A DNA stretch of 64,000 nucleotides from Fibrobacter sp. UWR4 (GTDB lineage: Bacteria; Fibrobacterota; Fibrobacteria; Fibrobacterales; Fibrobacteraceae): positions 62,001 to 126,000 of the forward strand of contig NZ_QGDU01000002.1 of NCBI RefSeq assembly GCF_003149045.1, read 5' to 3'. How positions within the stretch are numbered: position 1 is the first letter of the stretch; each line of letters begins with the position of its first letter. The translations under genes and the position numbers were made by a program. Positions 41,590-58,514 of this stretch are shown in pieces. Under the pieces are notes generated by a model. The model was not told where the DNA came from and did not search any database. It saw nothing but the letters and a program-made list of their open reading frames with translations.

Positions 41590-43344
41590 ATGGCATACGT
41601 AGCAATGGCCCGAAAGTGGCGCCCTCAGTCTTTTTCCGACATGGTCGGACAGGAACACATCGCAAAAACCCTCCAGAACGCAATTGAAGGAGGTCGCCTC
41701 CATCATGCATTCCTGTTTACGGGAACCCGCGGTGTAGGTAAGACTACCAGTGCCCGTATCCTCGCAAGAACACTGAACTGCACCGGAGGCGATCCGCTGC
41801 ACCCCTGCGGCGAATGCGAAAGTTGCAAGAGCATCCTTTCCGGAAGCTCCATGGACGTTTTCGAAATAGACGCTGCTTCCAACACCGGCGTAGACAACAT
41901 CCGCGAAGTGATTGAAAAGGTTCAGTATCCTCCCGTTCTTGGCAAATACAAAATTTTCATCATTGACGAAGTCCACATGTTGTCTACCGCAGCCTTCAAT
42001 GCACTGCTGAAGACCCTGGAAGAACCTCCTGAACATGTAATTTTCATCTTCGCCACAACCGAAGTCAACAAGGTGCTCCCCACCATCCTCAGCCGCGTGC
42101 AGAGGTTCGACTTCAAGCGTCTGTCCGTAGAACAGGTTCGTAGCCGTCTACGTTACATCTGCGAACAGGAAGGCATCACCGCCACCGACGAAACATTGGA
42201 CATCTTCGCAGAAAAAGCCGATGGTTCCATGCGAGACGGCCTGACCTTCTTCGACCAGGCATTCGCCTTTACCGGCAACAACATGGACCCGGATTCCGTA
42301 CGTAACGTGCTCGGAATTCCCCCGGTCGAACTGTTCTTTACGCTAATCAACGCCATTGAAAGCCACGATCTGAAGACCTGTTTCAAGATGGTGGACGAAG
42401 CCTGCAAACGCGGTATCGAGTTCATGCCCTTACTGGACGGCTTCGGTAAGTTCCTGCGCAACTTGCTTTACACCCGTCTGGACGCGTTCACTGCAGATGC
42501 TCTGAACCTGACGGACGAGCTTTATTCCAAGTACAAGAGCGCAACTCCTAGTCTCAAGAACGGCGACATTCTGCGAATTTCCAAGATGCTTACCGACCTG
42601 CAGGGTTCTTTGCGTTACAGCACCAACCCAAGACTTATGGTGGAAACCACATTCGCTAGAATGGCATGGCTGGACCACTTGGCAGACTTAAGACGAGCTC
42701 TGGCAGCCATTAACGACCCCTCCAAAGCCTCAGGTTCCGCCGACCACGAGGCGTTAAAAAAAAAAGTAGCGGAAGTTAGTCAAATGCTGGACGCTTCCGA
42801 GGGAGCAGCAAGCGTCCCACAAGAAGCAAATCCCTTTGACGCCATCCAGAATGTTTTCTCCGGAAGTGGAGCCACTTATTCCCGATACGACATCGTATCC
42901 GCCTGGGGCTCCATCCGCGCCCGTATTGCTGACGAGGACATCATGTTCTCCGCCACATTAAACGACACACTTCTTGAGGTCGGGAACCTTCAGGAAACGC
43001 CGTTTCCCATCTCCCTCACCTACATCGGCGATAACATACAGGATTCCTGGAATTACAAGCAGATGGTGGAAAATCCGGACTACCTGGACCGAGTCAAGCA
43101 AATCCTCGAAGACAAACTCCAGACTCCTGTGGCGATTTCTGTCAAGACCCGTACTTACAACGACGAAGAAAGACAGCAAAGGTATCAAGCCACCCTTTCC
43201 CCGTTGGAACTGGACCTGCAAAAAGAGCCTGGTTTCCAGAAATTCATGCAGACTTTCAATTGCGAGCTGATTTTTTCCATCAAACCCAAGAAGAAAGTGG
43301 AACAGATCCAGGAATCCGAAACGGATTCGGAAATTTCAGACTAG
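41590..43344 (+). CDS. dnaX: DNA polymerase III subunits gamma and tau
   Basis: 584 residues. Clamp-loader ATPase: Walker A in GTRGVGKTTSAR (about 42-53), zinc-binding cysteines in LNCTGGDPLHPCGECESC (about 60-77), Walker B EVHML and the sensor SRVQRFDFK. Domains I-III end near residue 370; the following tau-specific part is 190 residues. At 42756-42765 codons 389-392 (Leu-Lys-Lys-Lys) contain ten consecutive A. One base more gives a stop after four further codons; one base fewer gives a stop at once. Shortened gamma-like products of 396 or 392 residues are therefore predicted. ybaB follows, as in many bacteria. Confidence 0.95.
   Translation: MAYVAMARKWRPQSFSDMVGQEHIAKTLQNAIEGGRLHHAFLFTGTRGVGKTTSARILARTLNCTGGDPLHPCGECESCKSILSGSSMDVFEIDAASNTGVDNIREVIEKVQYPPVLGKYKIFIIDEVHMLSTAAFNALLKTLEEPPEHVIFIFATTEVNKVLPTILSRVQRFDFKRLSVEQVRSRLRYICEQEGITATDETLDIFAEKADGSMRDGLTFFDQAFAFTGNNMDPDSVRNVLGIPPVELFFTLINAIESHDLKTCFKMVDEACKRGIEFMPLLDGFGKFLRNLLYTRLDAFTADALNLTDELYSKYKSATPSLKNGDILRISKMLTDLQGSLRYSTNPRLMVETTFARMAWLDHLADLRRALAAINDPSKASGSADHEALKKKVAEVSQMLDASEGAASVPQEANPFDAIQNVFSGSGATYSRYDIVSAWGSIRARIADEDIMFSATLNDTLLEVGNLQETPFPISLTYIGDNIQDSWNYKQMVENPDYLDRVKQILEDKLQTPVAISVKTRTYNDEERQQRYQATLSPLELDLQKEPGFQKFMQTFNCELIFSIKPKKKVEQIQESETDSEISD
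42748..42799 (+). promoter_or_regulatory. candidate dnaX frameshift/slippage signal
   Basis: SD-like GAGG (42748-42751), A10 run (42756-42765), then CGGAAG (42770-42775) that can pair with CTTCCG (42794-42799). The three parts have the same order as the E. coli dnaX -1 frameshift signal; the A10 run alone could also act by polymerase slippage as in Thermus. Confidence 0.6.
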
Positions 43345-58360: not shown

Positions 58361-58514
58361 CATCCGTAGGGAAATGTGATTTGTTGAACAATCGGGGCAC
58401 TTTCCCAATATTTTTTTACAAAACTTGCACGTTCATTGTAACATTTTGCCCATTTTTTCATATTTTATGAAAAAAAAAATCAAGATTTTGTCCCTTTAAG
58501 GATTATTCGACATC

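Follow-up and report, generated by a model that had tools for sequence, protein, structure and literature searches.

A conserved A10 run in Fibrobacter dnaX as a candidate programmed slippage site for a second, gamma-like clamp-loader protein

Two kinds of slippage-prone dnaX gene are already known, namely the Thermus gene with its run of nine adenines (A9) and two-ORF genes that carry A7–A10 (PMC1088944, PMC3711429, PMC5009743). Transcriptional slippage in Thermus thermophilus dnaX was reported by Larsen et al. (2000), whose work is described by PMC1088944 and PMC5009743; two-way use and close stops in both frames are the pattern that slippage by RNA polymerase produces. Messages of varying A number and roughly equal amounts of gamma and tau are further marks of the Thermus type. 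A review (PMC5009743) links the possession of both lysine tRNAs (UUU and CUU anticodons) to polymerase slippage in Thermus, and gives the length of the RNA:DNA hybrid as 9–10 bp. The two-ORF dnaX genes with A7–A10 were described by Antonov et al. in 2013 (PMC3711429), and stem-loop-mediated slippage in the IS630 element of Roseiflexus by Penno et al. in 2015, in the account given by PMC5009743. It is difficult to establish through comparison that truncating slippage is functional, since it creates no new coding sequence that can be checked (Baranov et al., PMC1088944).

The window analysed here is a stretch of 64,000 nt from Fibrobacter sp. UWR4, whose genome comprises 3.6 Mb in 93 contigs. 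It carries a dnaX gene (Table 1) with strong matches to the NCBIfam profiles PRK05563 (5e-141) and TIGR02397 (1e-130). The Pfam domains found in the product, which end at residue 369, are DNA_pol3_delta2, the ATPase lid and gamma3, and the nearest solved structures are those of E. coli gamma/tau, with the clamp-loader domains matching E. coli gamma (1jr3, 8val). The gene is a single ORF of 584 codons with the tau tail in frame in the DNA, so that it falls outside the two-ORF kind. At codons 389–393, frame 0 reads TTA AAA AAA AAA GTA; the original prediction had placed the A10 run on codons 389–392 of this gene, and these details were all confirmed from the sequence.

The products can be computed for each number of A in the message. 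Ten A give 584 residues (65.5 kDa), nine A read AAG TAG and end the protein at 392 residues (43.8 kDa), and 11 A read AGT AGC GGA AGT TAG and end it at 396 residues (44.1 kDa). With 8, 12, 14 or 15 A the product has 393–397 residues, and with 13 A it has 585. In the AlphaFold model (mean pLDDT 77.8, with block means of 35–53 over residues 361–430), the slip point falls in a predicted flexible linker that has the clamp-loader domains on one side and a folded C-terminal domain (about residues 435–556) on the other. The predicted short form would therefore be a complete clamp-loader subunit minus the tau part.

Table 1. Features of the dnaX locus (window coordinates)
Feature	Position	Strand	Basis or remark
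dnaX, DNA polymerase III gamma/tau subunit	41590..43344	+	NCBIfam, Pfam and structure matches; read in frame 0 as tau (584 aa)
Predicted nascent-RNA hairpin 5' of the run	42727..42752	+	Folding and codon-null tests
A10 slippage run (candidate), made up of the last base of codon 389 and codons 390–392	42756..42765	+	Unbroken across the genus; A8–A12 in 69/73 other Fibrobacterota
GTA codon, source of the TAR stop after loss of one A	42766..42768	+	Genus alignment; invariant, 76/76
TAG reached when one A is lost (or two gained)	42767..42769	+	Stop at this position in all 82 rows
Stem CGGAAG (42770–42775)/CTTCCG (42794–42799) of the original prediction	42770..42799	+	Present in 2/76 genus genes
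TAG reached when one A is gained (or two lost)	42777..42779	+	Genus comparison; replaces the usual genus TGA two codons earlier
Second stem (GACGCTT/AAGCGTC), specific to the genus; begins 24 nt past the run	42790..42816	+	Codon choice
Tau-specific part, residues 393–584: linker and folded C-terminal domain (about 435–556); missing from the short form	42766..43341	+	AlphaFold model

Long A or T runs are scarce in this genome, with only nine places in 3.6 Mb where at least ten stand together, and this scarcity makes the A10 of dnaX more than a matter of chance. Five further runs of this length were inspected: three fall outside ORFs, and the remaining two, at the edges of genes, consist of T, one of them in a terminator-like context. 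The sole other A10 within the window is at 58470–58479, where no ORF was found.

We found dnaX in 76 of the 80 genomes of the genus and read all 76; the four genomes without it are 62–88% complete. The run is A10 in 75 of these genes and A11 in one (G036), and no second A run of eight or more is present anywhere in the 131,479 nt of genus dnaX. Codon choice at the site is exceptional. In an alignment of 77 genes (the 76 of the genus plus one of a sister genus, with one A of the G036 run omitted from the count), only 8 of 315 degenerate codon columns with a conserved residue are codon-invariant, and five of the eight are 388 (GCG), 390–392 (AAA) and 393 (GTA). Codon 389 may specify L, V, I or T, always with A as its third base. 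In the rest of the gene, lysine is encoded by AAG in 78% of cases, while GTA accounts for 16% of valine codons and GCG for 14% of alanine codons. The residues flanking the run vary across the genus, and selection at the protein level therefore does not explain the invariant codons.

One might read the site as a neutral poly-lysine stretch, retained for its charge or by chance, since the region is a flexible linker and its lysine residues are conserved. However, this leaves unexplained the invariant AAA and GTA in the face of strong AAG, GTC and GTG usage, as well as the fixed third base (NNA) of codon 389, the stops and the tails lying in other frames. The codon columns had already refuted this reading, which we find hardly credible. 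Almost no credence can be given either to a DNA-level contingency run that produces phase variation by replication slippage; A11 in G036 and G097 and length variation of A8–A12 in the phylum would suit it, but A10 is fixed in 75 of 76 genus genomes and the switching off of dnaX is implausible, the gene being essential in well-studied bacteria.

The stops behind the run are as constant as the run itself. They were counted in 82 rows, made up of the 76 genomes, five duplicate records and one sister-genus record. After the loss of one A, the first codon behind the run is a stop in 82/82 rows (TAA in 59, TAG in 23), because the valine is always GTA. After the gain of one A, a stop follows after two codons in 79 of the 82 rows (TGA 78, TAA 1) and after four codons in the remaining three, which include the UWR4 gene. 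When the downstream sequence is codon-randomised and one averaged p is taken per genus, the stops in both unused frames prove nearer than such sequence gives (Fisher p 7e-13, 32 genera combined), although relatives are non-independent samples and p values here are indicative. The original prediction, which gave a TAG at once with one base less and a TAG after four codons with one extra, is borne out on both counts. It had also proposed that the run and the double stops be sought in other Fibrobacter dnaX genes; the run is there in 76/76 and the stops are there in 82/82 rows, and in none of the 76 genus genes (0/76) is the run broken by synonymous changes.

Outside the genus, 69 of 73 other Fibrobacterota dnaX genes have a run of A8–A12 near residue 375–427, which brings the total to 145 of 149 in the phylum (with G036 counted as A11). 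Among these other genes, the run occupies all three codon phases. Four genes from two genera have no run: L199/L201 (genomes G164/G165), where DnaX is only about 440 aa long, and L260/L262 (G137/G138), where the tail is repetitive. These four may be cases of natural loss of the two-form system.

The frame of the tau tail also moves. Behind the run it lies in frame 0 in most genes and in −1 or +1 in other lineages, and in the outer families the tail motif EPIIxxxxxxFDGEVL follows the run whichever of the frames 0, −1 or +1 it occupies. In genus g4 (ten genomes) and in a single genome of the sister genus g2, the run is A9 and a sequence-conserved tail exists only in +1; as read from these sequences, tau in this clade would be reachable only via a frame change at the run. 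A quick dnaX tree of 365 N-terminal residues requires at least ten changes among the states frame 0, −1, +1 and no run (run loss being counted as a state), and the scatter of tau frames over the tree calls for a mechanism that supplies all frames. Clade-wide switches are unlikely to be assembly errors, whereas the single-genome switches (A11 in G036 and in G097) could be homopolymer errors of assembly. In G036 (locus L164), the A11 stands at 1255–1265 and frame 0 stops after 390 codons, with the whole tau tail intact in another frame; either the assembly is wrong here or this gene can make tau only by slippage.

The original prediction left open whether the site is of the E. coli or the Thermus type. 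Transcriptional slippage of the Thermus kind fits better than E. coli-type ribosomal frameshifting, because both frames are closed, the run is at least nine A long and the tau tail of relatives may stand in any of the three frames. If transcripts can carry any number of A, frames closed both ways and shifts needed in either direction are what one would expect, whereas an E. coli-like −1 ribosomal shift is served by one stop and ribosomes by A AAA AAG. The genome has lysine tRNAs with UUU and CUU anticodons.

Several features could nonetheless be read as ribosomal frameshifting by −1, programmed as in E. coli dnaX, with A AAA AAA as the slippery site, GAGG as an internal Shine–Dalgarno sequence and a downstream stem. 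The heptamer is of a legal kind, closure of the −1 frame comes within 2–4 codons in every row, and both of the stimulators named in the original prediction exist in the UWR4 gene: GAGG at 42748–42751, 4 nt before the run, and a stem that begins 4 nt after it. As a conserved E. coli-like stimulator, however, the stem is not supported, and the GAGG is ambiguous at best. The GAGG occurs in 58/76 genus genes and is absent from 18/76, and it is mostly the 3' arm of a hairpin that abuts the run on its 5' side. The stem is confined to the window genome and its nearest relative, and no codon-supported structure appears in genus segments that begin directly behind the run or 4 nt further on. The genus is also without A AAA AAG in the frame-0 phase, the frame always being XXA AAA AAA AAA G, and a −1 shift could do without the invariant GTA, which closes the +1 frame, and without as many as 9–10 A in a row; relatives require +1 shifts. 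We consider ribosomal frameshifting of this kind distinctly unlikely.

Further downstream, at +18 to +60 relative to the run, the codons chosen in the genus favour structure, with a mean of −4.5 kcal/mol. The second stem listed in Table 1 takes the form GACGCC/GGCGTC or TGCTGGACGCC/GGCGTTACAGCA in relatives, and it is too distant for a standard frameshift stimulator.

A ribosome can slip on an A10 run, and sliding of ribosomes along consecutive AAA codons, with faithful RNA, would take them through several frames to end at out-of-frame stops, which matches the closure of both frames (PMC4363877). In E. coli extract, however, such sliding is robust at A11 and gives little product at A9 and A10 (PMC4363877), while A10 is the standard in the genus and A9 the standard in the clade whose tau would need slippage. 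It also does not predict a hairpin adjoining the run. Sliding as the source of the short form is, in our judgement, very unlikely.

The hairpin that adjoins the run on its 5' side has as its arms, in the UWR4 gene, GCCTC (42727–42731) and GAGGC (42748–42752), with an inner pairing of GGTT (42733–42736) and GACC (42742–42745); an alternative core would pair CGCC (42738–42741) with GGCG (42750–42753). The linker of this gene is four residues longer and the 5' arm GCCTC lies further out, with its pairing to GAGGC retained. In much of the genus the stem reads GCGCCTC-CGAC-GAGGCGT. Genus g14 has GACCTC-TCC-GAGGTC and CTCCCCGG-TTCGC-CCGGGGAG, and elsewhere one finds CCCTG-CCTCC-CAGGG (genus g6) and CCTCT-AAA-AGAGG (genus g4).

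Within the genus, covariation by position gives no clean signal, the core being too invariant and the outer pairing too mixed, and an energy profile was used instead. The folding energy of a 24-nt segment was compared with that of codon-randomised versions with unchanged peptide, each genus counting once. For the segment touching the run, the difference from the null averages −5.0 kcal/mol in the genus and −3.0 kcal/mol in ten other genera of the family, and over 32 genera it averages −1.85 kcal/mol, being negative in 24 of the 32 (Wilcoxon 1.4e-5). This segment is the only sharp peak, and segments 6–18 nt further upstream are positive. With a 34-nt segment, the genus mean is −4.35 kcal/mol and p < 0.05 is reached in just 45% of distinct sequences, so the hairpin claim holds at the level of the group. 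Judged by these energies, the predicted hairpin is favoured by codon choice at a single position, adjoining the run, across the phylum. The UWR4 hairpin (−11.5 kcal/mol) has a codon-null p of 0.17, which is not significant for one genome alone, and some lineages have a weak stem (e.g., −4.6 kcal/mol in the L119 clade); for these two reasons the hairpin may be a modulator at most, with A10 alone sufficient.

The conservation of run, stops and codons strongly indicates that the A10 run is a programmed slippage site that would yield a second, shorter, gamma-like clamp-loader protein. The full proposal, to which we assign a probability of about 0.83 from sequence comparison, is that RNA polymerase slips on the dnaX A10, that both tau and a gamma-like form result, and that the hairpin probably raises the rate. 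The core of the original prediction, a slippage or frameshift site giving a gamma-like form that keeps the clamp-loader domains, is thus strongly supported by conservation throughout the phylum.

In this proposal, RNA polymerase would slip while copying the A10, whose length is that of a complete RNA:DNA hybrid, and part of the transcripts would carry 8, 9, 11, 12 or more A. Messages with 10 or 13 A would yield tau by ordinary translation. Counts other than 10 plus or minus a multiple of three would lead to a stop within 0–4 codons, and to a gamma-like protein of 392–397 residues in which the clamp-loader domains are kept and the tau-specific C-terminal part is lost. At the moment when the hybrid consists wholly of rA:dT, the adjoining hairpin would lie in the RNA exit channel, and it would probably raise the slippage rate. 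We infer transcription rather than translation as the level of slippage, and likewise its rate, the role of the hairpin and a functional gamma form. A bolder version, which we rate at slightly better than an even chance, holds that a selected hairpin set against a hybrid-length A10, in a terminator-like geometry with an A-tract in place of the U-tract, sets the gamma:tau ratio throughout the phylum, and that reliable slippage has let the tau tail shift between all three DNA frames several times.

Runs in dnaX are also found outside the Fibrobacterota. Alistipes and Tidjanibacter genes (L055, L071, L074, L077, L078, L087, L091, L092, L096, L100, L115 and L117) have A10–A11 at residue 360–361; the two other frames are soon closed by stops, an upstream hairpin is lacking, and the run is absent from the Prevotella and Bacteroides relatives examined. 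A Bacteroidales MAG (L067) has a two-ORF dnaX in which a stop at codon 367 directly follows an A10 and a 217-codon tail lies in the −1 frame. Relatives of Geobacter and Desulfuromonas (L046, L048 and L049) carry an A9 near residue 529–541 with close stops in the other frames, which, lying late in the gene as in Thermus, is possibly a separate slippage site. The upstream hairpin is absent from 25 dnaX genes with A9–A11 outside the phylum (Alistipes, Saprospiraceae, Marinimicrobia and others).

A literature search on slippage in Fibrobacter dnaX returned only PMC3711429, in which Fibrobacteres appear within a genome table. As far as the literature searched shows, conservation across the phylum, Fibrobacter included, is new, as are evidence from codons that truncating slippage is under selection, a tau frame that has switched repeatedly in one phylum and a hairpin that touches the run. 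The Fibrobacterota offer strong comparative evidence for such slippage, through codon-level invariance, stops in both frames and sister lineages whose longer protein is unreadable without a frame change. This would extend Thermus-style decoding of dnaX to a whole phylum, supports two DnaX forms being under selection, and suggests a cellular gene that uses a hairpin beside the hybrid to tune polymerase slippage. In automated annotation, one-ORF genes would pass as ordinary, and two-ORF genes are likely to be called frameshifted or broken. Because F. succinogenes can be cultured, direct testing is possible.

Set beside E. coli dnaX, where a −1 frameshift depends on A AAA AAG, an internal Shine–Dalgarno sequence and a 3' stem-loop, the gene is the same and so is the predicted outcome of gamma plus tau; the Fibrobacter site differs in the phase of its slippery codons, in a downstream stem that is not conserved and in stops kept in both frames. 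The Roseiflexus IS630 system, in the description available through PMC5009743, shares an RNA hairpin with a short loop, placed immediately 5' of its slippage motif (GCGGGCgcaaGCCCGC in Roseiflexus, GCGCCTCcgacGAGGCGTT in much of the Fibrobacter genus). Its motif is T5C5, with hairpin-dependent loss of one base only, in an IS element, whereas the Fibrobacter motif is an A10 homopolymer on which slippage would be expected without help, in a host gene.

Thermus dnaX and the UWR4 gene have in common a run of at least nine A, tau in one DNA frame with stops just behind the run in both others, a short product (predicted in UWR4) that retains the clamp-loader part (domains I–III) and two lysine tRNAs in the genome. 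The Fibrobacter run is A10 and about two-thirds into the gene, while that of Thermus is A9 and seven-eighths into it. Fibrobacter also has a predicted, selection-favoured hairpin abutting the run on its 5' side, its run and stops are backed by deep comparison, and some Fibrobacterota relatives have their tau tail out of frame. The two-ORF arrangement, in which slippage is needed for tau, occurs in relatives G036, G097, G151, G111, G125, G128–G130, G120, G134 and G135 and in genera g2 and g4. In contrast to the two-ORF kind of Antonov et al., the UWR4 gene has one ORF; both kinds and both shift directions are found within one phylum, and the open frame differs even inside one Fibrobacterota genus.
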